Shown: piece by piece, positions 18,013-60,337 of the stretch
How positions within the stretch are numbered: the stretch's first letter is position 1
How the letters are laid out: each line of letters opens with the position of its first letter
NCBI RefSeq assembly: GCF_963675165.1
Contig: NC_087387.1
Coordinates: forward strand, 2,593,501 to 2,657,500
Source of the DNA: Halichondria panicea
Taxonomy: Eukaryota > Porifera > Demospongiae > Suberitida > Halichondriidae
DNA length: 64,000 nucleotides
Direction: 5' to 3'
The notes under the pieces: generated by a model
Seen by the model: only the letters and a program-made list of their open reading frames with translations
What the model was told of the DNA's origin: nothing
The model's database searches: none
Position numbers and translations under genes: made by a program

Positions 18013-18593
18013 TACTTCCTTGAAAACAAAGAGGATATAAGGGAGCGAGGGTATTAGGTATTTAATATTGGATCATGAAATCATTAATTAAATCACGTCA
18101 TATTACCTTCGGGTATTATCCATTACAATGAATATCAATGTTCTGGCTCATGTGGTTCTTTTGACATTATACATAATGCAAAAATGTCGTCAAATCAATG
18201 AGATGATAACAGATCATGAGCTATATAATTATGCTGAGCATGAGGGAGCTGGACAGGAAACTAAAGTCTAACTTGCAGTGGCCTTATAGGAGAAGTTAGA
18301 ATCTCGTCTAGACTATAATATTATAGAGAGACTGATCCTGAATCAGGTATACAGATTGCATCTTCCTAGGGTGCAATCATGTAGAGGTAGAGACTTGTCT
18401 ATCATACAGACTTCAATTCACAAGGTCTAGCACGCATGCGCATACCTTTGACCGATAGCCTCGAATCAAAGCAAACCAGGCCCCCAGAAAATAAGCCCCT
18501 CCCTGTGACAATGTTTGAAAAAGGGTCGACAGAGCTTATAATTTTATCTTTCTGAAGGAGGCCAGTCACCGCCAGTTTAGTCTGCCGCGCGCT
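18013..18593. other. Spacer upstream of CCDC12 with NRF-1-like site
   Basis: No gene. It holds the presumed promoter of the + strand CCDC12 gene. The sequence CACGCATGCGCAT at 18431-18443 resembles an NRF-1 site and lies about 150 bp before the start codon. A TCGAATCAAAG repeat fragment lies near 18470. Confidence 0.4.
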
Positions 18594-35800: not shown

Positions 35801-38719
35801 TGCCAACTTCTACGTGAACCAATGCGCATGCGCACAACAAGGTAGCTACATTAGGACACAGAGACTTTTGAGGACACAGGCATGCCTGCAACAAGTCAGA
35901 GCAGCTCAAACGGAACTTCTGACGTGCTTTACAATTGTGATATTAAAACCTTGGTTCTCCTGTTAGCCTAACTGCTGTGCATAATTTGGCCACATTGTGA
36001 TTGATGTTGAATATTTTGCCCTCAGAGATATATTATTTCCAAATGTACATGTATGTACATACCCAGGACAATGCAGCTTCACTTCACGGTATGAATTTGC
36101 TTTTGGGACTCATGATCCTTACCTACCAAGCACGTGTACAATTCACAGAATCTCTGGTCAAACCAACTTGTCACTTTCTCAATTGCTAATGCTCGCCCCA
36201 AACATGCTTTGCATGCTCCTAGTTTACACAACTATACATGAAACTCCCTTACACTCTACTCTCTCACCTGCGAGCGGTGTCGACGGCTTGCTCCCAGTCT
36301 TGCAGTGCTAACAGAACCTTCATCTTCTCCATCAGAGGTGGTAGGAACCCAGGATAGCTGGCCACCGCTTGATTGAGCATCTCAAGCGAGAGGCTAAAGT
36401 TGCATCGTAGCAAAAGGAACTTGGCCTTTCCAAAAAGGGCGTCCACTGGTTTAGGCTCCTCGGGGCTGAAAAAGATTGTGTAATATGTGAACTACATGTA
36501 CATTATACACGTACACGTATTTGCACACTCATAATCACACACTTAATATTGGACAAAATTCTTTGGAAATTAGAAATTCATGAAAGGGCTTCAATAATGA
36601 AGTACTGGGTACATGTGCGTACATCATTGATAATACATACATGTATAATGTTCAAAGACATCCTACCTAGCAAGAGCTTTGTCAAAGAAGTTGATAGATT
36701 TCTTGGCAAGTGCTTCTCTGGCTGAGGTGAGGTCAATCCACCCCTTTAATACCAGCCCCTCTGTTGAGTTGGGTGCCATCTTGAGCAGTTTGTCAATGTA
36801 CTCCCTAGCTTTGTCGTTCCTACCAGACAGCCATAGGAACATGCTCGCATTGTATAGCGCCTGATGTGGAGAAAAAAAGTGGCTTAAACAAATTAGTTAC
36901 ATGTATGAGCAGGAAAAAAAAGGGAAGTCAGACTGACTTGTGCGTTTGACAAATGAAAGTGCATCTTAAAACAATACACTGCTTATTGGTTTCTTTGGCC
37001 ATTCCCACATACATCATCACATGTACAGTACCACGTTTATGTTTATAGTCACTACTGCTACATAATTATATAGCTTATAGTTTGTGTGTGGTATTCACAC
37101 TTTGAGGTCTAACCTTCTCCCCACATGTGGTTCTCACTGTTCGAACTTGAGCCTCTAGCTTCTGGATAGCCTCACGGTCTACACGTACATGTACGTATGA
37201 CATATTAACACAATGGCATACACTATTATACATGTATCGTACTCTACCAAGATACGCCCACGTCCGAAATTATGCCCACCCACTCAAGTTCCTGCATACC
37301 GTAAGACCTCGATTTAAGGCGACTCTCCAAATATGTGACACCCAGGAGCTTCAGCAATTTTCTGACCTCTAAAAGTAGCGACAGCTACGTTGACAATTAT
37401 TTTTTAATGCCGCGTTCTAAATAGAGGTAAATGTAGCCACTCCCTAGCCTCGATTGTAGCCCACTGGAAAATCAGTGTTTTTAAGCGGCCTGAAATCGAG
37501 GCAAGTAGACTCTGTAAAGTTACCTCCAATTAGATGCGACCCTCTAAATATGCGACATCAGGACTTCAATATAATTGTTCAACCCCCAAAAGAAGCGACC
37601 TCTGGCATTGTAATTATTAAAAAGTGTCGCTTTAAATCGAGGTCTTACGGTAGGCTAATTTGCCTCGAGAATACGCCCACCAGGACGTGATCAATTGTCA
37701 GGTGAGTGAGCAGTTGGTTTAGAAGTTTCTTGTGTAAGCTGGTTAGCTCTGAAGATAGCTAGATATAGCTAAATCCTAATTATTGCTCCCATTTGCAAGT
37801 ATAAGAGAAAAGGCGCTACATGGTACTTAGGGCCCCGTTAATTGTTTAAAATAGGCATAACCTGTCAGGTTACTATTCAATACATTAGTTATGTACATAC
37901 GTAGATCTGTATTATAGTCCATAATTAATTAGTGGGGGATATTACGGTAAACAAGTTAGAACAGAACATTGGGAAAAATCAAAACCAAAGCAATTGTTTG
38001 TGTCTCACCAACTGGAGTGCACTTTCTGTGGGCATAGATGAGTAGGAGAGGAGCACACAACACCACATCCCTCCGGTCAACAATCGGCACCAACTCACGC
38101 ATGCCTTCAGACAGACGATCTACACAATTGTAATTATTAGATACACACTGACAGATTGATCATAATAATTATGTCATTGGAGGTGATCAGTATTATCAGG
38201 AGTGCATGAATATTATGTCACCGTACACGCACACTGTTTATCATCACACAGTAAATGTTAACACGGTACTTTTTTGTGAGCAGGTTGCTAGATATGTTAA
38301 ATGTGGATATCTCAACACTAACTTCATAGCACTTTTTTTACGGCTCTACCCCAACTTGCAAAACATTAAGTAGCTGACCTTCCATGATGGTGGAGTATCC
38401 CTTCCAGAAGGTAAGGAGTGGGTCAGCCCCACACTCTTTCACCACCTCCAGCACACAAAGGGCCACCTTACGGAAGTACCTCTCCCGGGCGTAGTAGTGG
38501 ACACCTGCCTGAACATTGAAGCATGGGACAATTCGATACGACAGTGTTAAAAAAAACTGTCAGTATGCTACTGGACAAACATAAGGCCAAGAAGACAGGA
38601 TATTAAAGCAGATACACAGTGTGCCTACACGTACACACAGTGCCACATATTTTTTTATCCACACACATGTACGTACAGCAGATTGCAAAACTAACCAGCT
38701 TGTTGCTGATGTCAGCCAT
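20862..38719 (-). CDS. TTC21B: IFT139 (TTC21B), IFT-A tetratricopeptide subunit
   Basis: Complete gene, 27 coding exons (5' to 3'): 38696-38719, 38379-38508, 38009-38119, 37114-37178, 36667-36860, 36268-36465, 35376-35559, 34859-34951, 33597-33767, 33244-33378, 32841-32933, 32388-32517, 31873-32030, 31187-31461, 30827-30967, 29760-29865, 29236-29488, 25490-25619, 25283-25348, 24876-25089, 24402-24483, 23916-24066, 23532-23696, 22907-23093, 22414-22638, 21432-21552, 20862-21007. All phases join, giving 1,315 residues against about 1,316 in human. The protein is a long TPR solenoid, starting [20 protein letters not shown] and ending [18 protein letters not shown], both typical of the family. 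IFT139 is a peripheral IFT-A subunit needed for retrograde ciliary transport (known). The exon at 29760-29865 uses a GC donor. The largest intron (25620-29235) and several others carry mobile elements. Confidence 0.97.
21889..22120. mobile_element. MITE, CCGTATAGCG-end family, copy 3
   Basis: Inside the IFT139 intron between the exons ending at 22414 and 21552. The left end is TACCGTACGTATAGCGAGTA and the right end ATGACCCGCTATACGGTA. The inner parts of both arms (ATTTTCATGGGGTAAA / TTTACCCCCTGAAAA) also pair. 232 bp, non-coding. Confidence 0.75.
26391..26543. mobile_element. MITE, CCGTATAGCG-end family, copy 4
   Basis: The left end is TACCGTATAGCGGGTAATTT. The right end is CCCCACGAAAATTACCCGCT, then ATA. 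It has the best-matched arms of the four copies. 153 bp, non-coding, within the large IFT139 intron. Confidence 0.8.
26671..26952. repeat. Direct repeat, left copy (GGGGGATGCGCGAACGCAG)
   Basis: Nearly identical to 28733-29018 over the whole length, including GGGGGATGCGCGAACGCAGT, a GTTTCCCACGTTTGGGGAAA block and ATTATCTATGGCAT at the end. Read on the minus strand both copies have an open frame containing [20 protein letters not shown]. The same frame recurring in both copies suggests they descend from a dispersed element with coding ancestry. Could be a solo LTR or SINE-like unit. Confidence 0.7.
28733..29018. repeat. Direct repeat, right copy (GGGGGATGCGCGAACGCAG)
   Basis: Partner of the repeat at 26671-26952, same orientation, 2.06 kb apart. 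Differences are a few substitutions and a small indel near the 5' end, so duplication or insertion was fairly recent. Confidence 0.7.
30297..30777. mobile_element. Foldback element, GGGATTGGNAACG family, copy 2
   Basis: Lies in an IFT139 intron. The ends are inverted (CATAGATTGAGGAGAAAGGG left; partner CCCCTTCTACTCTATCTATG right). They are flanked by a 7-8 bp direct repeat (ATTCAACC at 30290-30297 and 30778-30785). The left 215 bp is homologous, in inverse orientation, to 63513-63726. Non-coding. Confidence 0.65.
31514..31670. mobile_element. Short inverted-repeat element (GTCAGGG ends)
   Basis: The left end is GTCAGGGTTTTGAAG and the right end ACACCCTGAC. It contains a self-pairing GGGGGGGAGGATATCCCCCC centre. 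157 bp, in the IFT139 intron between exons 32030 and 31461. Non-coding. Confidence 0.5.
34036..34775. mobile_element. Foldback element with ~115-bp arms in IFT139 intron 8
   Basis: The left arm (34036-34150) contains CCTCTCCTTTTTCTGTTCTT and CCTTGCTAAGTCGCGTGA. The right arm (34628-34775) is the inverse, with one extra segment of about 30 bp. The arms are purine/pyrimidine-rich on opposite strands. About 740 bp. No transposase. Short frames inside are repeat read-through. Confidence 0.7.
35101..35251. mobile_element. MITE with CAGGGCTGCAT ends and TAAAT duplication
   Basis: The left end is CAGGGCTGCATCCAGG and the right end TCAATGCAGCCCTG, flanked on both sides by TAAAT. It contains two GGGGGGGCGAATTA blocks in opposite sense contexts. 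151 bp, in IFT139 intron 7. Non-coding. Confidence 0.7.
35823..35834. promoter_or_regulatory. NRF-1-like palindrome inside an IFT139 intron
   Basis: TGCGCATGCGCA, identical to the site at 15634-15645. It lies in the intron between exons 36268-36465 and 35376-35559. It may mark an alternative promoter or be a relic of a repeat. Confidence 0.25.
37297..37652. mobile_element. MITE, CCGTAA-ACCTC family, copy 2
   Basis: The left end is CCGTAAGACCTCGATTTAAG and the right end TTAAATCGAGGTCTTACGG, both bounded by TA. The interior matches the element at 9783-10114. 356 bp, in an IFT139 intron. Non-coding; the open frame 37475-37690 is element sequence. Confidence 0.8.
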
Positions 38720-38946
38720 ACTCGAACTCTACTGTCTACTTCTTACTGCACCACAGTCTCAAAACTGCACTCAGTTAATTAGTTAGAGTTACGGTACCGT
38801 AGTCACATTGTAGTTTATAGACTCTCGATCAGCTCTCTGCAATTAACTCTGCAGCAGTATCTTCACCTGGCCGCCCGGGTATCTTAGCTTCCAAATGGAA
38901 CACATCGAGCACCAGAGGCAAACCCCTTTTTGTTTACTGATACGTA

Positions 38947-38961
38947 GTTGCTCGGAGTAAC
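38947..38961. promoter_or_regulatory. X-box-like RFX site upstream of IFT139
   Basis: GTTGCT-CGG-AGTAAC fits the RFX X-box form (RYYNYY, 1-3 bases, RRNRAC). It lies 228 bp upstream of the IFT139 start codon. RFX factors drive ciliary genes through this motif in many animals (known). A nearly identical site precedes DYNC2I1. Confidence 0.6.
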
Positions 38962-38998
38962 CAAAAAATTGCCCAATGGTGTGAACTATTGCCTTTAC

Positions 38999-39006
38999 GC
39001 ATGCGC
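38999..39006. promoter_or_regulatory. NRF-1-like motif near IFT139
   Basis: GCATGCGC within ACGCATGCGCAAG, 280 bp upstream of the IFT139 start and 38 bp beyond the X-box. It resembles an NRF-1 half-palindrome. Confidence 0.3.
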
Positions 39007-39089
39007 AAGAACTTAAGTTCTACACTACTAGATCTAGTTACTTATTTTTAAACAGTTAGTGTTTTCAGCTACAACTATACTATACACTG

Positions 39090-41120
39090 TCTGGCTGGAG
39101 CAGTTTTCTACTACTAAACTACCTAAGCACATATTTAAAGTTCACCTATACAACTATAGAACTAGCTAGAGCAGTTTTTTCCCCCTGCATAGACTAAACA
39201 GTTATTTCTTGAACCTGCATACACCATTCACCCAGGTTTCAAGGACAGGTTTCAAGGACAGATATCACCCCATATCAACCGGGTTAAGCTTGCCTCAAGT
39301 TATCGGGTCTTCAGCAAGAATTACGTAGTCAGCAAGCTTTTCTTCTTCTAATGATCCCACCTACTCATCAACTCGGCACTACTGCCATGCCCCATTGTTG
39401 GTAGCAACCTTGAAGGCCTGCTCAGGTGTGACTCTTCCATTTGCATTCAGAACATTTCGTTTAGGATCTTTTTCCATGATCCTCGTGATGGCCTGCTTCA
39501 TCCTTCGAAGTGCATGGACCCATGGGAGATACGTGCAGTCACTGTGGAAAGAAGATTTTATCTCCTTCTTCACAGCAGATTGGCAGACTCTAGATTTCTC
39601 CTCAAAAATGACATTTTTGAATGTGTAGCCCCACCAACGTGACCGACCAAAAAGCTAGGAGAGATTCCAAGATCACTCATGCGCTCCAATGCTTTGTCGA
39701 CAAGAGAACAATGCTCAATGCGATGCCTTTTCGGTATTCCACTTTCTCCTTTGACAGCAATCTTACAGAGTGAGTTTGATGGCCTTGTCGCCATTGGCGT
39801 GACACATAATAGACCAACTTTACCTTTGTCCTCATCTTCCGAACCATGCATTTGTTCGAATACAGAGTCAGGAGTCATTTCGTCTGGCTGAGAAAATGGA
39901 GGGAAATTGAAGGCTCACAGCGGTATATGCATCTGATTGATACCCTTGATTCGTGCCATTGGAGACCTGTTTAACACAACCCTGTATATATAATTGTTCT
40001 TGAATTTTCCAGTCAGAGGTTAGCTTGTATTCTCTGCAGCATGCAGCAAGAGAAGTAATCATTGAGGCGTAGCCATGCAACTATAATCTTATTAGGGTAA
40101 ACTTTGAAGGTGATCAGCTTGTTCAAGCCACTTGGACGAACAGTTGGCAAGTTGAAGAGTGGATCTATAGACCAATATCAAGAATCCAGGCTCTTTTTTT
40201 CAGGTCACCACTGCATGGATTCAAGAGCAGATTTTTCACTTGCAATGGCTTGCTTCAACAAGTCAGTATTGTAGGGTTCTTGTATGTCTTGTCCATCATA
40301 CGGACCAAAGTCGCTCCAAGCCATAGTGATTGCTGTGGGAACGAAGTGAACGTGTGGTTCAATCAATCCAGGTAAGAGCGTCTGTCCATCTGACAGCTTA
40401 ACAGTAGCTTATTTTCACACGATTGAGCGAGAGCCAACAGAGTGAACTTTCCTACCATGAAAGCCGATGGCATCAACCTTAGCCACGCTTCCTGCAACAA
40501 TTGAATGAACTGTTCCACCAGTCAGTCAGTGCATGTACATCACTGTGTCTGATCGAGAAGAGGCCACCGACTTTGGGATGGTCTTATCAGTTGATGAATT
40601 TGTACATTCCGCACGCCATTTTTGTAAAAAACTCTTTGAAACTTAGCTGCAAAGAGCGCCTTAAATACACATGCAGCTGTGTGCCATAATAATTTTGGAG
40701 GGTTTACCTATAATTATATACATGTATACGAATTGCAATGTACATCAGCGGCTTTATTTTTGATCACATGCACTAATACTAAGAGTGTTTATGGCTCATT
40801 TAAACCATCACATGCAGTCATGGGAATATTCACAAGTTCAGTGTTTTACAGATATGCGTAGGATGAGGTTGTATCCAGGACAACATTAGCAGATGCATCC
40901 CAATGGTTAGCATCATTAATTTGAGAATGTACTTATTGCATGGATTAAAGAACAAGGTAATATTGCACTATCAAAAAAATTAATGTAGCTCATGGTGACC
41001 ATAATCTTTCACTTATACCAAGGGCGTCTCTGTATACGCCCTTGCTTATACACAGAGCACTTTATAATATCACAGTCAGGGAAACTAATGGATAACACTC
41101 TGGGTCATAGAGCTAGCTCT
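39090..41120 (-). pseudogene. Decayed YtcJ-like amidohydrolase, copy 2, with flanks
   Basis: Inverted copy of the 45170-47885 region. Coding homology runs from the stop codon region at 39208 to the ATG region at about 40619 (MACGMYKF start still readable). Homology continues past both ends. Downstream it includes the CTGGCTGGAGCAGTTTTCTA block (39095). Upstream it includes the TTTAAATACAC promoter-like block (about 40660) and the GTAGCTCATGGTGACCATAA repeat (about 40985). The copy has frameshifts, a local duplication near 39240 and deletions in the middle. Extended flanking homology points to DNA-level duplication rather than retroposition. The open pieces 39379-39573 and 39570-39878 are in different frames. 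Non-functional. Confidence 0.85.
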
Positions 41121-41319
41121 TATATCTTATACTTGGTTTGCCTTTCGGAATGCAGTTGATATCATAACAACTTTACAAGAGAGATCATTCTCATGTTGAT
41201 CATGTTCACTTATATATCTAGCATGCATGTACTTTATACCATCTCAACCATGGCAAAACTAATACTGCATATACACTATAATTATTATATAGAAGCCAGC
41301 AGAAACCAGCCACAGGCAG

Positions 41320-41600
41320 CAACATACAGAATTAAGGCATGAACTAGAAGAACTGGGCATACCAGCAAAGATTTCAGGAAGTTGAGCAGTCTACTTTCAC
41401 CACTATAGAGTCTTATCAGGCATGGCAACACTTTTCTACAAACGCCTGAGCTCACTATGCTCGCCCATAAATGGGACCTCACTTACAACAACACCCTGTG
41501 CTGGCTAAGGTTCCGCCGAGTCCCTCTTACGCTTGGCCATCCCAGCTATCAGAGGTGCAAGATCGTCAGTGGGACATGCATGCAGCAAGGACACCCGTTG
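41320..41600 (+). pseudogene. Possible retroelement pol remnant
   Basis: In one + frame, broken by stops, a stretch reads GMATLFYKRLSSLCSPINGT and then LLRLAIPAIRGARSS. This resembles the conserved C-terminal tail of a retroelement polyprotein as I remember it from invertebrates. The assignment is weak. No ends or target duplications were found. Confidence 0.2.
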
Positions 41601-42268
41601 AGATTGACCTGATCTCAGCAGAATCCCATCTTGTAAATGAATGGACAGTAAAATCCATTTACAATGAATCTACCGTATACGTGTACCCTTGGGTTTTGTC
41701 ACTTTCATTACTGTACATGTCATGCATTCTCTCACTTGGGGCCTAAAAAAACAAAGCTTCTATATATATCTTTTGTTATCCCACTAAAACGAAACAGTAT
41801 ATAGTCAATAATTAGCGTGGCACCTAACTCTGTCCCTAACACTATTACCCTAAGCCAACCCTAACCTAGATCTAGCCCATTTTTTTCGGTTGTTTTGTTT
41901 TAGTGGGACTACACACCTTCTCTTGGATTTTTGATTTGTGGATTTGCAAACTAATTGCAGATCCATCCCGTACCCCTCCCCTTATTGACAGGAAATGCAA
42001 AATACTTACTACCTTGTAGATCTAGTCAAATGAACTCTTGATCTAGTACATGCTTCATGCTGTACTATCATTCATCAAGTATACTATCATTCATCAAGCC
42101 ATCAGCCATTTAAGCTCCTCTTCTATAAGGACTGTGTGCTGGGTTCATTGTCAACAATTGCAAACAACCAATTATACAAAGCAGACTGAGAGTAATACGT
42201 ACGTCTTCTATAACTCTGGTACCTAATACTTTTTAAGTGAAACAAAACATGGCGAGAGGCAATCATTA

Positions 42269-42538
42269 GTACAGCACAACGCAAACATCTGCCAAGCTGT
42301 CACTATTTCCGAAATTGAGCAAATTCTGAGTACAATCTATCCTACTGCCAATGTTAGTGTTGTGAATTCAGCTATAGGAGATTGGTTATCTGATCCGCTA
42401 TTCAGAGGATCATTCATTCACTACTCAAATTATCTAAGATTTAGTGACTTTGATCGTTTAGGAGATCTGGTTGGAAATCTGTACTTGAGTGGCAGCGCTA
42501 CATCTGTAGATTTTGCATGGTGCATATTTTGCCAGTAG
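42269..42538 (+). pseudogene. Flavin amine oxidase C-terminal fragment
   Basis: Ninety codons open and ending in TAG at 42536-42538. The core reads GDWLSDPLFRGSFIHYSNYL and then DRLGDLVGNLYLSGSATS. This matches the FAD-binding C-terminus of polyamine/monoamine oxidases (W..DP..RGS, then GNLYLSG.ATS where most have GRLYFAGEATS). The catalytic N-terminal part is missing and the usual Gly-Glu of GEATS is Gly-Ser, so this is a fragment of a dead gene copy. The sequence just upstream (42200-42268) is shared with 56330-56400 in a DYNC2I1 intron, suggesting transport within a mobile element. Confidence 0.6.
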
Positions 42539-43130
42539 AGAAACGGCAGTGAAGGTGATTGGTACAGTAATGCGATAAATAAATGCTCAAACACATATTA
42601 ATTGTCCTGCTTGGAGTACTTTGTGCCACATACTATATTGTTGATAGGAAATGGCCATGCATGCATGCTCACTTGTATAATTTGTATGTGAGAAACTGTA
42701 ATAATAAATCGATCTTGACTTAATTACTTTATGGATATCATAATAAATTTCTAGTATACTATTCCTGTTGTATATTTATAGGTGACACTGCATGCATGTG
42801 CACCCACGTGTTCATGTGCCTTCATAATTATAAATACTAAAGTGCATGCATGGGCAGATTATAATTTACCACTCATGCATGGCCCATAATAAATAATCTT
42901 TATGCATTCTTTGTCTCATCTGTTGGGGAGTACAATTATAGGCCATATGTGCCTTCTGTACAACCCTTTCTCTCTTTTGAGTTCAAAATTCAATTCAATG
43001 CATGATTGTGCACATTGTAACCAGTCGATTTTATGCCTTAGCTTGCTGCTGCCTCGATGGAATTCGAAGTGTATGTAGCAAGCACATTGACTATTGTTGA
43101 GCATGTGTCAACGACTTGTGTATATAGTGC

Positions 43131-44462
43131 GATTGCCTCACACGAGATCAACTTTCATGAGATCAACTCCCACGAGATCAATTCTTACCAGAGCAACTTT
43201 GCATGAGGTCAACTGTCAATAGATCAACTCTCACAGAATCAACTTTTCATAGGATCAACTCAACTCCTGAAATCAACTCAAATCAACTCTAATCTTGTTA
43301 TCCAGAAATTAACTTTTTAAAGGTGTTGGCCTCACTTTTTTAGCTAATTACTATTGTGCATGTGCGCCCATGCCAAAGATTGGCAGGTATTTAGTAATAA
43401 GCCCCTATAGATTTAGCACAATGCACGCTAGCTCATTCACAATGGCTCAATCATCAAGAATTCCAGGAACAGTTGAAGAGCTATAGGAAAGACTTCGAGA
43501 GGTATATCTACACGAAAATAAGACGTACATTTTATGGTATCTGTGGCATTTTGTCCACTGACATTTGTTAACAGCCTGGCTTGCCATCCAACAAACATTG
43601 ACGAGCTAGTGGACTATTTTGTGCACTTACATGTAGTACAACCTGGACCAATGGAAACATTCACTTTCAATCACATCAGCCCAGAACCAACAATGGTATT
43701 TAATAATGAAAAAAGTCATCGTTAGTACAAAAGCAACCCCTCAACACAAAGGCTGCCTCTGTATCCGAAGGTGTTTGTTATAATAGGGTATGTCACACTC
43801 AAATTTCAGTGAGGTGGTGAAAATAATAGCTTAGAGCTAGGATGATGTTACTGCGTTCTATCGTGATAAGCGCCACTGAACTGATCAACCTGTTAAACTA
43901 CTAGACTTCTATATATGGTATGTAATCCTATAGGCCCTCTAATAACCAACACCCACTCAAGTCAATGGCCCACACTTTAAAGGTGCTGTTTCAAATTCTT
44001 ACCCATTCAGCTGTACAGCCTGTAGTACCGAACAGTATAATGGCAGCTGCAAAAATTCAACTAACAGGCATCCGATTAATATGGATTGAGTACATCCAGC
44101 CAAAACAAAGATTCAGAGCTATACATGCATGTTTGTAGCTACATCTCGGCCATAGAGACGCAAAATAAAAGAGAAGAATCCATACAAACACTGTTTGACT
44201 GCTTCAACACATGAGGCATGACTCTGAAGAGTATATTTATTTTACCAGCCAGCAAGCATCTTAATTGTAAAATTTGGAAGTGTAGCGGTTTTTTGTAAAA
44301 CTGAGTTGATCACATGAAGTTGATCCTATGAAAAGTTGATTCTATGAGAGTTGATCTACTAACAATTGACCTCATGCAAAGTTGCTCTGGTAAGAATTGA
44401 TCTCGTGGGAGTTGATCTCATGAAAGTTGATCTCATGAAAGTTGATCTTGTGTGCACACACC
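43131..44462. mobile_element. hAT-like foldback element with ATCAACT subrepeat arms
   Basis: Flanked by the 8-bp direct repeat TATAGTGC (43123-43130 and 44463-44470). The arms (about 43138-43310 and 44300-44462) are inverted. Each consists of roughly ten degenerate units of 15-17 bp with consensus CATGAGATCAACTYTC. The 1 kb centre is non-repetitive. Length 1,332 bp. The target duplication length fits hAT superfamily insertion. No transposase is encoded. The centre contains a broken reading frame (see 43442-43740). Confidence 0.75.
43442..43740 (+). pseudogene. Broken gene fragment inside the foldback element
   Basis: An ATG-started stretch (MAQSSRIPGTVEEL start) meets a TAG after 14 codons. 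After an intron-like gap ending TTAACAG, a second stretch contains HPTNIDELVDYFVHL and then PGPMETFTFNH. The repeated (T/N)(V/I)(E/D)EL pattern and the spacing recall N-terminal PB1-like modules of lineage-specific proteins, but I cannot name the family. Probably a host gene piece captured by the element. Confidence 0.25.
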
Positions 44463-44470
44463 TATAGTGC

Positions 44471-45123
44471 TTGTGTATATACACAAATGGCTTGCTGCTT
44501 CGTCTTTGAAAATATTCTATGGCTACTAAGATAGTCCAGAAAGACTACTTCATACTACTCAGTCCTACATGCTGTGTAGCTGGTCTAAACCCTGAAAACG
44601 TTAAAGGATAATCGCATTCATGACACTATATCCAATCTACGACAGAATCCAATATCAACATTGACAAATTGAAAGCACGCTCCTTTGTTGTTGTACAATT
44701 TACAAAATTTTGATCGGTAAAGGGATAACAAACTAGCTATACAGCCCTTTTTTCATTGTCCAAAACTTTACATTCAACCCTAAAACTCATAGCTGTACAT
44801 CGTTTTAGTTGTGCATCGTTTCACAACTTGTGCTAATGAATTTTCTACAAATCTGTCAAAATTAGTACCATAAAAACAGAGAAAAATCTTAAAATAATTA
44901 CTACCCGTCTATAATAGCAACCATAATTATAACATAATACCTATAATTATACAAAAGTGGTGTACAATTCAAGGTTCCCCTAATGTTGTCATGCCTACAA
45001 AGACATTCGTACTCAGCTTAATTCAGACAGTGTAAGTGCATAATTGTTAGGTATATTAAAGTACTGCAGTAAACCAGGTATAAGATGTAAGAGCTCTCCC
45101 CCTAACGTTGTCAAGACTACAAT
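44471..45123. other. Gene-free spacer
   Basis: AT-rich. Two degenerate precursors of the repeat that follows are visible (CCCCTAATGTTGTCATG at about 44978 and CCCCTAACGTTGTCAAG at about 45101). No gene seen. Confidence 0.4.
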
Positions 45124-45796
45124 AACTCTATATGCTCATAATTATAAAAAAGTGTTAGTTGCCATGAACTGTGATGCAATGGTATGTAGTATTACAAAGT
45201 GCTCTGTGTGTAACATAAACTGAACGATTATGGTTACCATGAGCTACACTCTTTAATTCACTCAAAGTGCTATAGTCACTGGCATATAAGAGCTGCCTCC
45301 CCCTAATGTTGTCATGGATACAATAACTCATTAAACCATTCTACACATAGTCATTGCTGTAAAACTAATGACTTGTGAATATTCTCCATTAGTCGCCATG
45401 ATTGCTGTCTCTTTGATGTATCCATTAATATACAATTAGTGTGGTCAAAAATTGCATTCTTAACTCTATATGCTCATATTTATAAAAAAAGTGTTAGTTG
45501 TCATGAACTGGTATGTATAGTATTACAAAGTGCTCTGTGTGTAACATAAACTGAACGATTATGGTTACCATGAGCTACACTCTTTGATGTACATTAATTC
45601 ACTCAAAGTGCTATAGTCACTGGCATGTAAGAGCTGCCTCCCCCTAATGTTGTCATGGATACAATAACTCATTCTACACATAGTCATTGTTGTAAAATTA
45701 ATGACTTGTGAATATTCTCCATTAGTCGCCATGACTGCTGTCTCTTTGATGTATCCATTAGTATACAATTAGTGTGGTCAAAAATTGCATTCTTAA
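45124..45796. repeat. 338-bp tandem duplication upstream of the amidohydrolase
   Basis: Copy 1 is 45124-45461 and copy 2 is 45462-45796, both starting AACTCTATATGCTCAT and sharing CCCCTAATGTTGTCATGG and GGTTACCATGAGCTACACTC. Copies differ by scattered substitutions and short indels. The block ends about 150 bp before the amidohydrolase start codon, so it may affect its regulation. A related segment lies upstream of the pseudogene at 40960-41090. Confidence 0.8.
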
Positions 45797-45950
45797 GAGT
45801 GTAAAGTCGCTGATGTACATCACAATTTAGAGAAAAACACACCTAAGTATTCTTCGTTGTGGCCAACAACTGTGTATTTAAGGGGCCTTTTGCAACTAAG
45901 TTTCACTGAAGGAGTTTCTAACACAAAACCTTTCACAGCAAGACGAAAAC

Positions 45951-47770
45951 ATGGCGTGCGGAATGTATAAATTCATCAAGTCCTTTAAGTATGACAAGAC
46001 CAGCCCAAAGCTGGTGGCCTCGTCTCGATCGGACACAGTGATGTACACTGGTGGAACAATTCGTCCAATTGTTGCAGGAAGCGTGGCAAAGGTTGATGCC
46101 ATCGGTTTTCATGATGGGAAGGTTCACTCTGTTGGCTCGCTCAATCGTGTGAAATCTAAGATGGATAGCTTGAAAATCAAGTACGCTACTGTCAAGCTGT
46201 CAGATGGACAGACGCTCTTACCTGGATTGATCGAACCGCATGTTCACTTCGTTCCCTCAGCAATCACTATGGCTTGGAGCGACTTTGGTCCGTATGATGG
46301 ACAAGACATGCGAGCACCCTACAATACTGACTGGTTGAAGCAAGCCCTTGCAAGTGCAAAATCTGCTCTTGATTCCAGTGGTGACCTGAAAAAAGGAGCC
46401 TGGATTCTGGGTACTGGTCTAGATCCATCTCTTATGCCATTCAACTTGTCAACTGTTCGTCCAAGCGGCTTGAACAAGCTGATCACCTTTGAAGCAGACA
46501 CTATCGATTGCTTGGAACCAAGTACTCCCGTCTATGTGATCTCTGCTTCTGGCCACACTGGTTACGTCAACACTCCAGCCATACAGCTGATATACGATGC
46601 CAACCCCGACATCAAGCAATCTTACCCTACCTTTGCTGAGTATCGCGAGCACGTCAATGCAGCTGGGGGGATGCAAGAATTTGAAGAAATGCTGCTTGCT
46701 GTGAAGGCTATTCCGACATTCCAATTTGAGATTGCGAGCATTTTCGAACACCTGGATTCTTTGTTGACACTGCTCTATCACGAGGAGCTACATTGATCTA
46801 CGATGCCACCGCTTCAGACGACACTATCAAAGCAGTTGATCAATACCTGAAAGTTCACCCTAATAAAATTAGGGTTGGCTACGCAACTATGATTGAATCG
46901 CTTGCTGCTGCAGAGAATCTTCCGGAGTACAAGCCTCTGACTAAAATATTCAAAAACAACTATGCAGGGTGTGTTAAACTGGTCTCCGATGGCTCGAACC
47001 AAGGATTAACAGGGTATCAATCAGATACATACCGCTGTGAGCCTGCAGGCAATGTGGGAGCCTTTAATTTCCCTCCATTTTCTCAGCCAAAAGAAATGAC
47101 TCCTGACTCTGAGTTCACAAAAATGGTTCAGACGATTGTGGACAAGGGTTGGCCTATTATGTGCCACGCCAATGGTGACATGGCCATCAAACTCACTCTG
47201 GATGCCTTCAAGATCGCTCTCAAAGGAGAAAGTGGGATACCGAAAAGGCATCGCATTGAGCATTGTTCTCTTGTCGACAAAGAAACATTGGAGCGCATGA
47301 GTGATCTTGGAATCTCTCCTAGCTTTTTGGTCGGTCACATTGGATATTGGGGCTACACATTTAAAAATGCCATTTTTGAGGAGAAATCCAACATTCTTGG
47401 AGTCTGCCAATCTGCTCTGCAGAAGGGGATGAAAATTTCTTTCCACAGTGACTGCACTGTATCTCCCATGGGTCCACTTCGAATGATGGAGCAGGCTATC
47501 ACGAGGATCATGGAAGAAGATCCCGAAAAAAATGTTTTGAATGTAAGTGAAAGAGTTACACCCGAGCAGGCCCTCAAGGTCGCCACCAACAATGGAGCAT
47601 GGCAGTGCCAAGTTGATGAGTTTGTGGGATCACTAGAAGAAGGAAAGCTGGCTGACTACGTAATTCTCGCTGAAGACCCGATAACTCGAGGCAAGCTTAA
47701 CCCGGTTGGTATGCGTGACATACCCGTCCTTGAAACTTGGGTGGATGGTGTATGCAGGTTCAAGAAATAA
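45951..47770 (+). CDS. YtcJ-like metal-dependent amidohydrolase, intronless, with one frameshift
   Basis: Two collinear frames, 45951-46762 and 46763-47770, together encode about 606 residues of an Amidohydro_3 (YtcJ/COG1574) protein. Family motifs occur in order: PGLIEPHVHF (HxH metal ligands, residues 97-99), SGHTGYVNTPA, DGSNQGLTGY, CHANGDMA, RHRIEHCS, FHSDCTVSPMGP and GSLEEGKLADYVIL near the C-terminus. The family hydrolyses N-acyl or related bonds; the substrate is unknown. The frame shifts at a short T-run near 46760: one missing base ends frame 1 at 46796, and the other frame resumes at once. Either a sequence error or a recent inactivating mutation. No introns. A TATA-like GTATTTAAGGGG lies at about 45875. 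Two inverted decayed copies lie at 16642-18012 and 39090-41120. Confidence 0.85.
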
Positions 47771-48087
47771 CTGTTTATGCTTGAAAAAACTACTCTTCTA
47801 GCCAAACATTGTAGTTCTATATAGTTGTATTGCTGAACTTTAGAAGTGTGCTTATAGTAGTAGAAAACTGTTCCAGCCAGACAGAACACTTAATATGGGC
47901 TTAGGATTAGTAGTTCTATTTGTAGAGTTATAATTATCAAGAGTTATAAAAGTATCGAACTTACTAAGTACACTGTACACACTGTGGAAAGTAAGGTGAC
48001 ATGCACATGAGCTGCATGATGCTCTATTGACGCTACTCACGTATTGGTGCAGTTTATAGCTATACGTACGTATCAATAGCTAGACGC

Positions 48088-48206
48088 TGTTTAGGAAGTT
48101 TCTACGATTTAGAAGCCCAAAGGGCTGGTTGTAGTATCCCGAGCGTAGTGAGGGTTCTATTAGCTCTGAGGGCTTCTAATCATCATGAAACTTCCTAAAC
48201 AGTGTT
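48088..48206. repeat. Short foldback (GTTTAGGAAGTTTC arms)
   Basis: The left arm is CTGTTTAGGAAGTTTCTACG and the right arm GAAACTTCCTAAACAGTG. The inner block GATTTAGAAGCCCAAAGGGC and then GTATCCCGAGCGTAG is shared with 15690-15735. 119 bp, non-coding. Confidence 0.7.
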
Positions 48207-48306
48207 AAATCATAGCAACTGTGAGTCTCTATCCAATCAGATTTGTCTAATTTTTTTTATACATGATTGTCTAAGTGAAGTGCATGATTGTCTAATTAAG
48301 TAAAAG

Positions 48307-48517
48307 CAAGGGCGTATAAAAGAAGAGAGGGCATGCAACTCCTATATGAGCAGAGTTCAAACGTGGGCGGATGAATGTGCATGACTGTGCATGAAATGAA
48401 ATTTCTATTTTTAGCACTTCATGCAAATGCACACATTCCTCCGCCCACGTTTGAACTCTGCTAGCTATGTATACTGATAGTGGAGTTGCATGCCCTCTCT
48501 TCTTTTATACGCCCTTG
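48307..48517. mobile_element. Foldback MITE with GTAAAAG duplication
   Basis: A 7-bp direct repeat GTAAAAG (48300-48306 and 48518-48524) flanks inverted ends beginning CAAGGGCGTATAAAAGAAGA. The arms continue through GAGTTGCATGCCCTCTC and CGCCCACGTTTGAACTCTGC blocks, so nearly the whole 211-bp element folds on itself. Non-coding. Confidence 0.8.
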
Positions 48518-48732
48518 GTAAAAGTATACATGATTTTCTAAGTTGCATGGATAGAACACTTCCTCTAACCAATCAGATTGCAGCAAACATGAGGCAAATG
48601 TTAACTTTCTTTGTCTAGAAGAAAATTATACTCCGAGTCGCTTGTATTTTCTTCTTCACACAAACACACAAACATGGTGATGCAGCAGTCTTTGCTCCTC
48701 CGGTAAAAAAACTGTACTACTATAGCACTCTC

Positions 48733-48900
48733 CAATTGGAGATGTAAGTCGAGTCAAAATACTTGTCAAGTATAACTTTCAAGTTGGTATATGTACAGCA
48801 AGGAGAAATTATAAGGCAATTGGAGATGTAAGTCGAGTCAAAATACTTGTCAAGTATAACTTTCAAGTTGGTATATGTACAGCAAGGAGAAATTATAAGG
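48733..48900. repeat. 84-bp tandem duplication
   Basis: Two consecutive copies, 48733-48816 and 48817-48900, appear identical. Each starts CAATTGGAGATGTAAGTCGA and ends AATTATAAGG. The identity implies a very recent event or an assembly artefact. Confidence 0.9.
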
Positions 48901-49744
48901 ATTGGGTTTCCAGTGATGACAAGTGCCTACAGAAAGCGACTATACGTTTTACCCAGGATTACATATCGAGACATATACAATGAAGTAATTCGTTATCATT
49001 CCCAAAAATGTTAGGAGGACAAGCCACCCAATAAGCCGAGTAGATTCCAAGAACTGCCTACTTTGGCACTTGTTGGCCAATGCAAGTATCCTCGAAAAAG
49101 ATATGAAAACGATTGAGATTATATTATAGTGGGTAATCGGTTAGGGCTCTAGAGAATATAGGCTAACGGTTTCCGGCTAAGGTTTGGAACTTTGTCACAA
49201 CATCTATATAAATAGTTGGTTCGATGTTGCTTGCATATATCTACACATCCTCCGCAGTGCTCAAAATTGTAGTGCTGTTTCAGTTAGGGAGAGATTGGAG
49301 AGATCTTACGGCTAAAATTACACGGAGTAAGCTTGAATAAATTTTCTAACTGAAAAATTTGTCTAGAAATACGGAGATATTGATGTTACACACATTTTTT
49401 TTACGATCACTCCCGTTTCCACCTAAATGGATTTCCCACAATAGAATAATGTTGTAATGGTATCAGCACAAATGTTCCAATCTTGAGATACATGTACAAC
49501 TATAATTATACTCACACATTATTTTGTCTACTCTCCAGACGGCATGGATGCACTGTATCTATTGAGGATAAGGAAAACTATCTTCGCAATGTCACCGCAG
49601 AGTATGAAACGAAAGAAATATGCAAATAGAGATAAAAAAAACTGGCTCGTAAATGTGCGGATTTAGAAGTTAGCCTCAATGATGAGCAACACAATGAAAT
49701 GTGTTAGAAAAGCTAAGCTCAGATGGAGCTGCTGACATAGAAAA

Positions 49745-50105
49745 GTCCTTAGCAGAATAGCTCCCAACACAGATAAGAGTCACACTCAACGTAAGCAAAT
49801 GCGAGTTTGAGAAGAGCAAATTGAAATTCCTCGGTCATGTGATAGATGCTGGTGGGATTCGAGCAGACCCAGACAAAACATCAGCTATTCGGAATATGGT
49901 ACCCCCCACCACCAATGTATCTGAGCTACGACGCTTCATGGGGATGGCAAATCAAATAGGAAAGGTTTCAAGCAAACTACATTGTAGCAGAAATTTCCCA
50001 ACCACTTTGATTGCTACTTAGCAAACGAACAGCCTGGATGTGGGGACATGACCAAGAGAAAGCCTTTCAAGACCGACAATTTTGGCACTCTATAATCCAC
50101 TTTCA
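49745..50105 (+). pseudogene. Ty3/Gypsy-type reverse transcriptase/RNase H remnant
   Basis: Decayed pol sequence. It reads KCEFEKSKLKFLGHVIDAGG, then DPDKTSAI and VSELRRFMGMANQIGK, the palm-to-connection region of Ty3/Gypsy reverse transcriptases. After frameshifts come AWMWGHDQEKAFQ and ILALYNP, typical of the start of the RNase H domain. Interrupted by stops (for example TAG at 50019-50021). No LTRs identified. Upstream sequence from 49550 may include more of the polyprotein, unrecognisable. Confidence 0.75.
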
Positions 50106-50503
50106 TCCCCTCTTTTTTGTTTTCGATAAGCTGCAGATCAACTTGGTCAATCAAAACCAACCATGCACTCTAGCTCTGTAGACATCAAAATAATTAACTG
50201 ACACCTTTTATAATCAGTCACTTGCTGTTGAGTTGAGGGAGTTGGGGATGAGCCGGTAGAGCAGCAGGTAGAGAGCGTGTAGAGCTGGTGAGAATAATAG
50301 TTGAGACACGGCAGAGCTCGTAGCATGGTAATGGTAACAGACTCACGGTGCAAAAGCATGGCAAAAAGTGATGACGACCCGCAAATCTGCCTAGACTCTT
50401 TTTCAGGTCTAAGAAGGTCGATTATTTCCTAATCTCAATCTGTTTTTGTTTGGGCCTGGGCATCTAGTTGCTCAGAGTAACCGGCTGGCTGGAAGTTATC
50501 AAA
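50106..50503. other. Upstream region of DYNC2I1
   Basis: Contains the X-box-like site and the presumed promoter. A 70-codon minus-strand frame (50147-50359) ends at a possible donor but has no further exons or recognisable domain. Confidence 0.4.
50467..50481. promoter_or_regulatory. X-box-like RFX site upstream of DYNC2I1
   Basis: GTTGCT-CAG-AGTAAC fits the RFX X-box form. It lies 23 bp before the DYNC2I1 start codon, within the typical proximal range. It differs from the IFT139 site by one base in the spacer, and flanking bases are also shared (TA before, C after). Confidence 0.65.
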
Positions 50504-53500
50504 ATGTCCTCTGGAAGGAAGGTGGGTTTGGTATAGGTAGGTTTGTCTCAGAGCCTGTCTGTTTTGTAGCTGATAAAGCCGTGGTTCATGTGCTCTCTAC
50601 TGCAGAAAGAGAAGAGTAAAAATGATACTTGGGGAGAGCAGGAGCTAGCCAGGTACATTGGAGGGGGAAAGGATGCAGCTAAAAAGAAACTAACATCTAC
50701 AGATCCCTATGGGTGAGTCCAATAACTAACTTGTCAATATGTACTTAGATCTAGATGTAGGCCTACTAACTTTAGTAGCTTTAAATAGTGGAACAAAATG
50801 GAGAACCCAGTTTCTGTCCAATGAAATGGTCATGATAAAAATTCATATCAACAAAGTTGCATATTAGAGGGTGGGTGGTTTTAGATTTTGGGAAGGTGTG
50901 TCCTGAATCATGACAAGGCCCCAGGGGTATGCTTGTTGCTTACCGTACTTCTAAGGGGCCGCTTTTTAATACGTTCGAGGCTAGTGTATGCAAAACAAGA
51001 AATAGCATTATGTGGTGATTTATAGGAGAAATCTCCAGGTGGCGCCTTATTAGAAGGGGGTGTCTTTTAGGGAAATGGGGTCTTGTCAGTTGTAGAGCAA
51101 GGGTTCTAGTTAACTACTGTGTACATAATTATGTAGGCCCATGTAATCATTCTCATATGATAATTATTAAGCTCTTCTTGCAGCTCACAGAAGGGGAACC
51201 CTAGAGCTAAAGCAGGTGGTACCTCGTCAAAGGACCTGACTAAGACCACTAGACATACGGGCAAATCAGACCTTAAGAAAACAAACTCTAGTGAGGCCAA
51301 ACCTAGCACTGAGACTAGTGGTAGACGAGAGACAAAACCTTCTGGAGGTCAAAGTACAGGGAAACACGAAGGTGACAAACGACGAACAAAGGATCTCAAG
51401 CATGGTGAAAAAAAAGACCCCAAATTACAGGGAAGATCAACACTGAAAGAGTCAAGTTCCAGGCGCATTTCTGAGAAAGATAGAGGCCATCAAAGTGACT
51501 CTAAGAGCAGCAGAGAGAAGCATAGTGGGTCAAAGACAACTGAGAAAAGACGTAGCGATAATCCTAAGCCTGAAAGGTCTAGGGATGAAAAGAAGACAAG
51601 TATTGCAGTAAATAAAGAGGAGCTCAAGCAAAAGGACCGTGCTCCACTACCATGTATGACGTAAAACATACAAATGTTTTCCCTTGACTATGACGATTTC
51701 GAAAGCCTTTGTAATTAATTAATTATTATGCTTAATACATATTAATTATTATACATAATTATTTACTATGTCCATCTTATACATACACACTTTTATTATT
51801 ACTTTCAGCAACAGAAAAGCAAAAAGAAAGTAGTGCTAATGAGAGGGGCAGCCCCCAGCCCATGCTGGAAGTGCTGGAAGACCTGGGGAATGAGGACTAT
51901 CAGTATGACGAGGAGTTCGAAGTGAGTATAATGTGTACAATGTACATGTAGCTCATTATTGGAGTCTACCGTAGCGAGCATCAAACACACATGTATGTAA
52001 TAATGCGAACCTTGCTTGTTGCTAATGGGGTGCCCCGAAACAACCATGAGGGTTCAGCAAATTGGGCATGGCCCGACCTTCTGTTAGGACGGGATGTATT
52101 GCAAGCTTATCTGGGACTTGTTTTGGAAGTATAACCAACCACGTGAAAAATGCTGCAATCTGATACGGCGCCTCTATAGTGGTGGCAGAACAATCCAAGA
52201 TAAGTTTGCAACCCGACCTTCCCTCCTAACGGAAGGCTGAAGTGTTGACTAATGGATGTCGCATCATAACTTAGGATTTTGATATCATATCGTTTACTGA
52301 GTGTGAGATTAAATTGGCTACAGTGTAAAGCCAAAATAGTGGCTATTAATTTTCCTATTAGGGTAATTATAATTAATACGAGGTGGGATTTATTCGCTCC
52401 CACTTTCTGCAGCCTGACTACGATGATGACTTTGATGAGGTGGCTGAGGAGGACTTTGATGATGACGGCTTTGATGATGATGATGATGATGACAACAATC
52501 CTAGCTCACTTTCCGAGGACAATGGGGAGGTACCTGCCACACCCACCAATGCTAATGTGGGCATGTCATCTACCGATTCTAAAGCCGTTGTGATGAAGGC
52601 CATGGACCTTGTAGAAATAATGCAAGCAATGGATGCAGAAAATCAAATGGTGGAGGACTCTTCATCGCAGCCTCGACCACAGTCACGTAGTGACAGGGTT
52701 ATTAGTGGGCGTGGTGTACGAGCTTCCCCTAGTCACAAGTTTGTGGATTTTTCGTATGCTCAGACGAGAGAGGTCAATCAGGAGGTGTCGAAGAAGACCA
52801 GGAAGAGGGGGCAGGTGAGTAAAGTCAAAGCACTACTCTTGATACAGTGCACTCTTTGGAGTATACTGAACCTGCACTATTTGAGTACCTACTATCCAAA
52901 CCCAATTAATATCTCGATGCTGTGTGATTGTGAATGTTGCGTGCTATGTTAATCCTAATATTGCATATTGTACATAACGAGAACATGTGTCACGTACAAT
53001 CTCCACTGACGACTGTGTCTGACTTTTGTTTCGCAATCCATCGAGCCTTTGTGTATTTGCAGGAGCTCCTGTCGTTGATAGAACTAGACATTACAGCCTA
53101 TGACATGTTTGACCTCCCACCTCTCTCTGAGTATGAGGTCTACGTGAAGAAGTTTGGAGCTGATGACGCCAGACAGGTGGGCAAGTACATTACATGTATC
53201 ACTAGAGCCTGTTGATTGGTGCTCTGAAACAGTAGAACCTTATGGTACTAAGTGCTGAAAATCATCAGCACAACATTGGTACATATAATTATAATAATTA
53301 TACTACACCTAGGTCAACATTCTCTTTCTTTTTACAAGTGTACTTGCCTAGGATACATGTATACAGATTGAAATCTTCATTATAGAGTGCTCGTGGTAAT
53401 GGTCGATAATTATTTTCCATGTATGCCAATGCTCACACACATCCCATTCTCCCCTCCCCTCAGGCCTCAATGCAGACTGGTGAAGACAATGTGGAGAGTG

Positions 53501-56500
53501 AGGTCCAGACAGAGGGAGTGATTATAGAGGAGCGATGGACACAATGCCCACCAGAAGACCTCAGGGGATATGGAGGTTAGTTCAGTATATGCCTCACTCT
53601 ATGTATGCCGACTTTTGCTCATAATTATAGTATCAATATAGAGGCCTGGGTAGGAGGATAGCTCATAATGTGTATGTGCGGAAGATTGTTTGTAGAGAAT
53701 GCCTATATACAACATGAAACCAGTAGGATCAGGCAATGGAAGGCAACTGGGCTACACAAGAACTTACTAATCAATCTATGTTTGTCCTTCCTACCCTCAT
53801 GTAAAGTACTGTAATTATGTAAGGCTCCAAGTTCACTGGCAAATTAAAATTTACATTAACTGTGTAAAATGAACATGTACACGTCTATCTGATCTGCTCG
53901 TGTTCAAATTGTGTTTTTTTGCAGGACCTTCCCTGAGCAGTGATGATGGTGTGTTGGAGGCTGGGGTGCGTGGAGAGAGTGCTATCAGACTGACCTCGTT
54001 CCTCAGCAGGGCAGGACAGGTTTGTATTTAGCATACATGTACCGGTAGTTGCATACATGTACTGTATCTATGCTCTATACACACAATAGAACACACCAAG
54101 CCTTGATAGAGATACGTAAGTCATCATCAGTGACTTTCCAATGCTGTAATGTTGAGAACTGTTGCATGCACATACATGTGTACATTATTTTAATGTACAT
54201 GCTATAATGTAGCTTACGTGGCACAACACTGAAATGTAACAATTTATTCTGTTAACTGTATAATTTACTAGCAAACGTACATGTATATCACACTGTACAA
54301 TGTAAGTATGTCGATCCTGTGCCTACCCAGGTGTGCAGTGTTTTGCTTGAGGAGAATCTGCTCTATACTGGAGGGTCCTCATTCCAATCAACCCAGTCCC
54401 AGTTCCCATTCTGCTCCAGCTCTCTTACCATACAGTCACCTTCCTACTTGTCAGGTATATGTACATGTATGTTGCCTAGCAACTACATTTTTAATTGGCA
54501 AATACATGGTTGGATTAGAAACTTTTTTCGTATTTCGTTGGGTCTTATATAAAGTATCAACTCATGAATTGTGTATGCGTACCGGTCAGCTGAAAGTTAA
54601 ATGTAACAAAACCTTAACGCGTCGCAATAACAAAATTCTAACGTAGCAATCCGCGTGCATAACGAGTAGTGTACAATTTATAATTGTGGTATTTGTAATT
54701 TACAATGTCATTGATTTCCTCAGATTGCTCAGTAACCAGTATCAGCCATAGCCCGTCCCAGCCACACCTCTTCCTAGCCACCTATGCCCCCACTGACCAA
54801 GTCTTGTTTGGCAACAAAAGGGAATCCCCTGGCCACATCCTCTTGGGCAACGAGGGGGTGGTTCTACTGTGGAGCAATAGGGAGGCAAGCAGGCCACAAA
54901 TGTACGTTAACTTAATACGTGTACATGTAACCATAATTATTATGTACTCGCTTTTGTCCTGCAAATTTGTTTTAAAACATAATTATTGCTACCCTATAAA
55001 CAAGCCACCCCAAGTATCGATTGTCTCTCTGCCCTCCTTTCTCAGGGTTCTGGTGTGTCAGTCTCGACCCACCTGCACATGTTTCAGTCCCCACAAGTCG
55101 TCGCTGGCGTTCGCGGGGCTCAGTGATGGCTCAGTGGTGCTATGGGACCTGAGAGAGCCAGCTGCCATGCATCGGAGAGACGGGGAGGACCCTGTCATAA
55201 GAGTTCCCACCTTCAGTACTGGTGAGTGGAAGGGCTATTTATGTGTGTATATGAGAGCCACTGAGAACCATTTTACTATAAATTATATTCTTCAGTTTTT
55301 AGGGTGCATAATAATAATTATAGGTTCGTGTATCCTTAGCAGTAGATGTAGTTGTTGTGTTATTTAAATGCGTGTATGCTGCATGTCGGTCTTTGTACTG
55401 CATGTTCAATCTAAAGCACGTACACCATCGCATGCTGGTCATATTTACACAGTACATGTATGTGTGCATGCTTCCGGATCAATTATTTGAGGCATGTACA
55501 ATGTGCGTAACAGGTTAATCTGGATATTAAGTGTGACAATTGTTATGCCTCGAGGCGTAGCCGCACGAGGGATACGGTAAAGCTGACTATGTGTGTGTCT
55601 GTAACTGCTCAACGGTTGCCATGCGACGAAAACTAACAGCTACTATAGGCTTCTAGCCACGTTCTCTTGGATTTTAATTCGTGGATTAGCAAACTAAAGC
55701 TTCTTTCTCGAGTTATGGCTAGTTTGACTCACATTGAAGGCTGTTGCAGTCTCTTCAGAATCTTTCATAGCATCACCTGTTCGCACAAACTTTCTATTCA
55801 ACTTATGAGTTAGCCTTGCACTAAAGCGCTAGTTTTTTGTTAGCTACAACAGTCAGAAAGAGCTGCTAAAGAAGCTAGCTATTTTAGTGGCCATTACTGA
55901 ACTTGCAGACACACCCCTTATTCCTGGATGTAATGCGCATGTGCGCTCAATACCACGTTTGTAAGAGAATCCATTTTGAACCCCAGATCTTGGCAGCATC
56001 AATTTTCTTCTTTGTTGAGGCCCTGGTAAGCCACAAACCAACCTTTTCTGATAACTCTTTTTAGACTGCTTGTTATAGATACTACTTTCTGTGATTGAAT
56101 TCTGTCTTTCTTATCTCACAGACTACCACCTTTTCTGATAACTCTTTTTAGACTGCTTGTTATAGATACTACTTTCTGTGATTGAATTCTGTCTTTCTTA
56201 TCTCACAGACTACTGCTTTGACAAAGATTTGTTCCCACTGTTTGGCTACAGGCCATTTAAGACGATCAGTATGCACTATTAATTGTGGACACCCCTTTCT
56301 TGTCATCAAAGCATATTGCAAATTATTTACCTCTTCTATAACACTCTAATACTTTTGAGTGAAAGCAAAAACATGGCAAGAGGCATTAGCAAGCGCACGC
56401 TTGCAACACTCGTTGTACATGTACTTCTGATTTTGTAATTTAAAGAAGTACATGTAACCAACCATTAATGTGTACATGTTACATTGTATAGCAAGATTAG

Positions 56501-59460: not shown

Positions 59461-59521
59461 ATTCTAGCACTAGCTGTAAGTCTCAGTGTTCATATTATTT
59501 TTTGGGGCTGAATTGATGATT

Positions 59522-59527
59522 AATAAA
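59522..59527 (+). promoter_or_regulatory. Candidate polyadenylation signal of DYNC2I1
   Basis: AATAAA, 62 bp after the DYNC2I1 stop codon. It is the first canonical hexamer downstream. Confidence 0.45.
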
Positions 59528-60109
59528 GAAGGTTGCTTGATTTATTACAGGTATATAAACAGTGAGATTAAGCTTTGCCTTTTTCCGAGACGAGCGGACA
59601 CGGTTAATATGATGTTTTGTAGAGGAATTGTACCGCTATGCAAAGTCATGGTAATAATTATGGGGATTTGACCGCTTTACAGTTATAATGTGTGCTACAT
59701 GTATAATTATGCAATTAACTACAGTCGTGCATGTATAAGTCTTTACACACTGACTAAGTATATAACATGCTAAACATGTGAGTATGATTCTGAAGATAAT
59801 TTTCTCCTTGTACGAACATAAAATGTTGCACCCATCTTCAAGTCGACTAAGTGGGCGTTTTCATGAGGCACATCACTGCATGCATACACTTGCATGCAGG
59901 CTCTACTAATTATAATCTATTATACTGAGTATACGTAACTTTTTAATACATGCATGTATATAGACTATAGACCTAGAATGAATTTTTCAAGTTGGACACA
60001 GATGTACATAATTACAGTATAGACTCACTATTCCTGCTCTCTGAAGTATACGGCCACCTCGATCATTATATCGGCCATACTTGGTTTTCAATGTAATTTT
60101 ATACGTTTA

Positions 60110-60160: not shown

Positions 60161-60337
60161 GCCTCAAATTAACAGACTGACCAACCCCTCGCTATGCTAC
60201 AGAAAACACAAAAACGTAAAGAAATGTGCTTATGAAACTCAAATCCAAGAAATAGAGTACTCTTCTATAGCTTTCACCACACTCGTGATGTCCATTAACA
60301 GGAGGCCTGGCCCCGCTTCAGCGTATACCGCACATGA

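Follow-up and report, generated by a model that had tools for sequence, protein, structure and literature searches.

The 64-kb stretch of Halichondria panicea DNA analysed here (contig NC_087387.1, positions 2,593,501–2,657,500; hereafter the window) carries two ciliary genes, IFT139 (TTC21B) and DYNC2I1 (WDR60), which run in opposite directions. Each predicted start codon is preceded by a 15-bp near-palindrome that resembles the X-box, the binding site of RFX transcription factors. The gene names given in an earlier note on this sequence hold. All seven of the open reading frames (ORFs) scanned across IFT139 match the TTC21 ARM family at E ≤ 0.01, four of them above the curated cut-off, and exons 1–2 align to the N-termini of solved chains of IFT139 (E = 1.5e-8) and TTC21B (E = 1.1e-6). 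A phmmer comparison of DYNC2I1 with human WDR60/DYNC2I1 returned E = 3.5e-61, with 392 residues of the partial query aligned. The first exons resemble the start of the human protein, but taken alone they fall below significance (−3.6 bits), and a weak WD40 match lies below its curated cut-off. The partial protein gave four pattern matches in the viral_contigs set, none of which was confirmed as a relative. The end of DYNC2I1 is partially duplicated, in direct orientation, about 1.06 kb downstream (Table 1).

The two near-palindromes (site 1 at IFT139 and site 2 at DYNC2I1) are the only exact matches to GTTGCTNNNAGTAAC on either strand of the window, and no match to this pattern appeared in 100 dinucleotide shuffles of it. 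They lie where the earlier note placed them, with offsets of 228 bp to the predicted ATG of IFT139 and 23 bp to that of DYNC2I1. The stretch common to both extends to 18 bp, TAGTTGCTC[G/A]GAGTAACC, of which 17 positions are identical on the plus strand of the window. No further copy of the site 1 18-mer within four mismatches was found in the 64 kb, so within the window it is not a repeat unit. The statement that the two 15-mers differ at a single spacer base is true of the window strand. Because IFT139 and DYNC2I1 are read in opposite directions, a comparison in gene orientation (GTTACTCCGAGCAAC and GTTGCTCAGAGTAAC) gives three differences in 15 bases, at positions 4, 8 and 12. The X-box is near-palindromic, and this correction therefore leaves an assignment to RFX unharmed.

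Both sites are built from the half-sites GTTGCT and GTTACT in inverted orientation, each of which fits the RFX monomer consensus GTTRCY, and both have a spacer of 3, inside the range of 0–3 accepted for an RFX X-box (PMC10530576). The claim that both sites fit the X-box form stands for GTTRCY dyads and for the looser consensuses derived from flies, including the restricted version GYTRYY N1-3 RRHRAC, which both sites match; it fails for the consensus GTNRCC N0-3 RGYAAC and for the 14-bp form with a spacer of 2, which neither site fits. The canonical vertebrate X-box is such a 14-bp element, with inverted GTTRCY-type halves, a spacer of 2 and C at position 6; the present sites share the inverted halves and differ in having a spacer of 3 and T at position 6.

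Published RFX half-sites arranged as an inverted pair, GTTRCY N0-3 RGYAAC (hereafter the strict dyad), occur three times in the window, whereas 300 Markov simulations gave 0.287 per window on average. A separate set of 100 simulations had a mean of 0.32, and one of them reached three. Of the three dyads, two precede the ciliary genes found in the window by no more than 250 bp, and the third is inside DYNC2I1. Spacing and orientation also matter: the same half-sites form three inverted pairs at spacers 0–3 as against an average of 0.065 per spacing at spacers 21–500, and no everted or direct pairs at spacers 0–3 were present in the window. Two 300-bp promoters would each contain a strict dyad by chance with a probability of 1.8e-6 at the simulated rate and 2e-4 at the window's own rate. 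Both ciliary gene starts have a strict dyad upstream, whereas neither of the two other gene starts examined does, there being none in the 1 kb upstream of the amidohydrolase-like (45951) and helicase-like (62587) starts. The evidential weight comes from this distribution, since both ciliary promoters carry a dyad and the two other starts examined carry none.

Table 1. Features of the window, with positions counted from its first base.
Feature	Position	Strand	Details
IFT139/TTC21B gene	21361–38719	−	Start codon 38719; approximate, low end placed by eye (lowest ORF tested starts at 22378)
DYNC2I1/WDR60 gene	50504–59460	+	Start codon 50504; approximate, placed by eye beyond about 57355
Site 1 (putative X-box 1)	38947–38961	−	Window plus strand GTTGCTCGGAGTAAC; IFT139 sense GTTACTCCGAGCAAC; inverted GTTRCY half-sites, spacer 3
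Site 2 (putative X-box 2)	50467–50481	+	DYNC2I1 sense GTTGCTCAGAGTAAC; architecture as site 1
Third strict dyad, GTTGCCTAGCAAC	54471–54483	+	Spacer 1; DYNC2I1 intron, about 4 kb past the ATG
TTTTTGTTTAC	38927–38937	+	Ends 9 bp before site 1; its 9-mer TTTTTGTTT ends 11 bp before
TTTTTGTTT	50443–50451	+	Ends 15 bp before site 2
CCAAT box	38973–38977	+	11 bp beyond site 1
Amidohydrolase-like gene	45951–47770	+	Frame changes near 46.73–46.80 kb
Amidohydrolase-like copy	39271–40623	−	Inverted, diverged copy of the 45.9–47.8 kb stretch
Amidohydrolase-like copy	16834–18053	−	Assigned by eye from ORF similarity; its three ORFs have no Pfam match
Helicase-like ORF	61223–62587	−	ResIII, DEAD, Helicase_C; intronless in this stretch; about 454 aa from the first ATG
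Ty3/gypsy reverse-transcriptase-like fragment	49761–50021	+	By eye; no Pfam match
Perfect tandem duplication, 84 bp	48733–48900		
Inverted repeat	43141–43260 and 44318–44437		120-nt arms, 96% complementary; GATCAACT-like units by eye
End of DYNC2I1 and partial direct duplicate	59266–59668 and 60335–60727		108 nt at 92% plus short blocks

A precedent for this arrangement is found in D. melanogaster, where CG3769/D2LIC, likewise a dynein-2 gene, is down 63-fold in the dRfx mutant and carries the X-box GTTGCT AGT AGCAAC 71 bp before its ATG, combining, as here, a GTTGCT half-site, a 3-bp spacer and a position close to the start codon (PMC2375033). Among down-regulated genes, 14 of 20 entries for D. 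melanogaster are placed 60–321 bp ahead of the ATG, and a D. pseudoobscura site is at 5 bp (PMC2375033). Human X-boxes cluster within 500 bp of the transcription start site (TSS), in a reported window of −2300 to +1400. The fly sites differ in that a spacer of 2 prevails: the 26 fly X-boxes from which we built a scoring matrix comprise 16 with a spacer of 2, seven with 1 and three with 3, the spacing seen here. In the choanoflagellate system, ciliary promoters are enriched near the TSS for a motif that is attributed to cRFXa and that, like the halves of the present sites, resembles an RFX half-site, but it is a monomer sharing GTTGYCA, whereas the present sites are inverted pairs with T at position 6 (PMC10530576). 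Joint action of FKH-8 and DAF-19 on ciliary genes is described for C. elegans, the RFX site of core ciliary genes lying close to a forkhead site or to a place of forkhead binding (PMC10393296). In the window, only one of the two putative X-boxes has a perfect forkhead site beside it. A FoxJ1 protein is mentioned for the sponge Amphimedon (PMC3493443). We found no description of X-boxes at sponge ciliary genes in the literature searched, which did not cover Piasecki 2010, and a search combining X-box, Amphimedon and cilia returned no match. The term RFX does not occur in PMC12221973. Searches on RFX regulation of TTC21B or WDR60 gave nothing useful, TTC21B occurring only in a reference title in the available part of PMC3315471, and the C. 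elegans gene names that were looked for did not occur in PMC1794439.

An RFX X-box is the best-supported identity of both sites, because the half-sites fit GTTRCY, the spacer is within 0–3, and the sites have typical positions near the starts of two ciliary genes. We consider it likely, with a probability of about 0.8, that the two 15-mers are functional promoter-proximal X-boxes of the spacer-3 form. We infer that the genome encodes an RFX protein. In ciliated cells, a dimer of it would bind each site through the two inverted GTTRCT half-sites and would switch on both IFT139, which encodes a subunit of the intraflagellar transport (IFT) complex IFT-A, and DYNC2I1, which encodes an intermediate chain of dynein-2, so that two components of retrograde transport would be produced together.

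A number of observations weigh against this assignment. Both sites miss GTNRCC N0-3 RGYAAC by one mismatch on either strand, as both halves of each have T at position 6, where C is commoner, and the two matches to that consensus in the window are other sequences. Missing it does not exclude an RFX X-box, because T at this position is shared by sites of RFX-dependent fly genes (GTTGCT AGT AGCAAC and GTTACT TT GACAAC; PMC2375033). The same study reports that the D. pseudoobscura counterpart of CG3769 has the other form (GTTGCC AG GACAAC), that the presence of an X-box does not by itself predict RFX dependence in flies, and that fly IFT-A genes are outside RFX regulation, in contrast to what is proposed for IFT139, for which the prior is therefore lower (PMC2375033). 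All of the figures were computed after the motif had been noticed and are thus post hoc; the sample of two ciliary genes is tiny; and one of the two control genes, the amidohydrolase-like gene, has an interrupted reading frame. The N-terminus of IFT139 scores better against 8bda, a chain named only IFT139 (which we take to be the Chlamydomonas protein), than against TTC21B. The excess over chance depends on the form of X-box asked for, being present for the strict dyad and absent for looser forms: GYTRYY N1-3 RRHRAC was observed 6 times against 8.38 expected, RYYNYY N1-3 RRNRAC 78 times against 72.35, and GTTRCCNNNRGYAAC with up to two mismatches 18 times against 25.94, while RTNRCC N1-3 RGYAAC, which fits neither 15-mer, was observed twice against 1.17. 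With the fly matrix, sites 1 and 2 share second rank in the window with a sequence at 29804 inside IFT139, behind the third strict dyad. Four sites with spacers of 1–3 reach their score, whereas 200 simulations gave 1.59; applied to the real sequence, the matrix finds 0.375 per spacing at spacers 10–300 and three at the control spacer of 6. A site of such strength is uncommon, not extraordinary.

These figures bear most directly on chance, by which unrelated near-palindromes upstream of two ciliary genes would have been noticed because RFX is the regulator expected there. The lack of enrichment of the looser consensuses and the sample of two genes favour it, as does a motif-free control in which 10 of 1477 random pairs of 300-bp segments share at least 18 bp with at most one mismatch (both orientations, repeats included). 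That control, however, counts repeats and is not conditioned on an RFX form, and the joint probabilities given above for two promoters that each have a strict dyad make chance an unlikely explanation. The sites could also be read as a 7-1-7 palindrome, GTTRCTC-N-GAGYAAC, serving a dimeric non-RFX regulator of both genes. An additional C..G pair is kept in both sites, giving 7-bp arms around a 1-bp centre, a structure that did not occur in 300 simulations, and the base following GTTRCY is C, where the RFX consensus GTTGCCA has A (PMC10530576). Against this, each 6-bp half is an exact fit to the RFX monomer and the two genes belong to the class that RFX targets, so that another factor appears very improbable. 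To our knowledge, with no search aimed at it, no other factor has a site of this type, which also counts against one. Finally, both promoters might have received a piece of a dispersed repeat or of a shared duplication. Duplications are frequent in this region: one duplicated block starts at 39087, about 125 bp from site 1, and the retroelement-like reading frame recognised by eye ends about 450 bp before site 2. Since the 18-mer has no other place in the window within four mismatches, and clear similarity between the two promoters ends at the 18-mer, one 9-mer aside, such an origin is scarcely credible.

The third strict dyad has the top score in the window with the fly-derived matrix and is letter-identical to the X-box of Drosophila CG1126/BBS5 (PMC2375033, Table 2). 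It may represent chance or an intronic element, because it is probably outside the −2300 to +1400 TSS window of human X-boxes. Candidate partner sites were seen beside sites 1 and 2. The forkhead consensus is RYMAAYA, and TTTTTGTTTAC includes on the minus strand the word GTAAACA, a perfect forkhead site that occurs nine times in the window; the 300 bp upstream of the DYNC2I1 start codon hold no RYMAAYA match. The 9-mer TTTTTGTTT occurs four times in the window, two of the four being beside the two putative X-boxes and on the same side. It was picked after the fact, and among 39352 random anchor pairs, 160 have some 9-mer in common at such places in the same orientation and 154 in the opposite one. 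As a partner site, TTTTTGTTT is a possible lead, not a result. It is rather doubtful that the lineage uses a compact module, TTTTTGTTT-N11/15-TAGTTGCTCRGAGTAACC, in which a forkhead-like site and a spacer-3 X-box, with 3 preferred over 2, would co-regulate retrograde transport genes (one IFT-A, one dynein-2). The order within this module is fixed between its two parts and not relative to the gene. With 131 occurrences of CCAAT in the window, the CCAAT box near site 1 is weak evidence, and the NRF1-like word GCATGCGC, also near site 1 and present four times, is likewise left as weak.

Other features of the window include three amidohydrolase-like copies (Table 1). The Pfam family Amidohydro_3 was detected in two ORFs at 45.9–47.8 kb, one of them below the cut-off. 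No relative was confirmed in the genome_contigs scan for the amidohydrolase-like gene, nor in the one for the helicase-like ORF; a scan of this kind reaches close relatives only.

The two sites are probably real, and they are an expected extension of known biology, with no surprise. From two genes, we may reasonably infer that RFX control of cilia is in place in this lineage. Such control would be unsurprising because choanoflagellate ciliary genes are reported to be under RFX control (PMC10530576), and every sequenced metazoan genome is said to contain RFX and IFT genes together (PMC2873420). The advance is incremental in view of the choanoflagellate report. The 18-mer provides a precise and cheap pattern for a genome-wide test (TAGTTGCTCNGAGTAACC alongside GTTRCY N0-3 RGYAAC). 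If the assignment is true, it places an IFT-A gene under RFX control, which is not seen in flies, and if the lineage branches early among animals, the sites would strengthen the argument that cilia came under RFX control before or together with the origin of animals.

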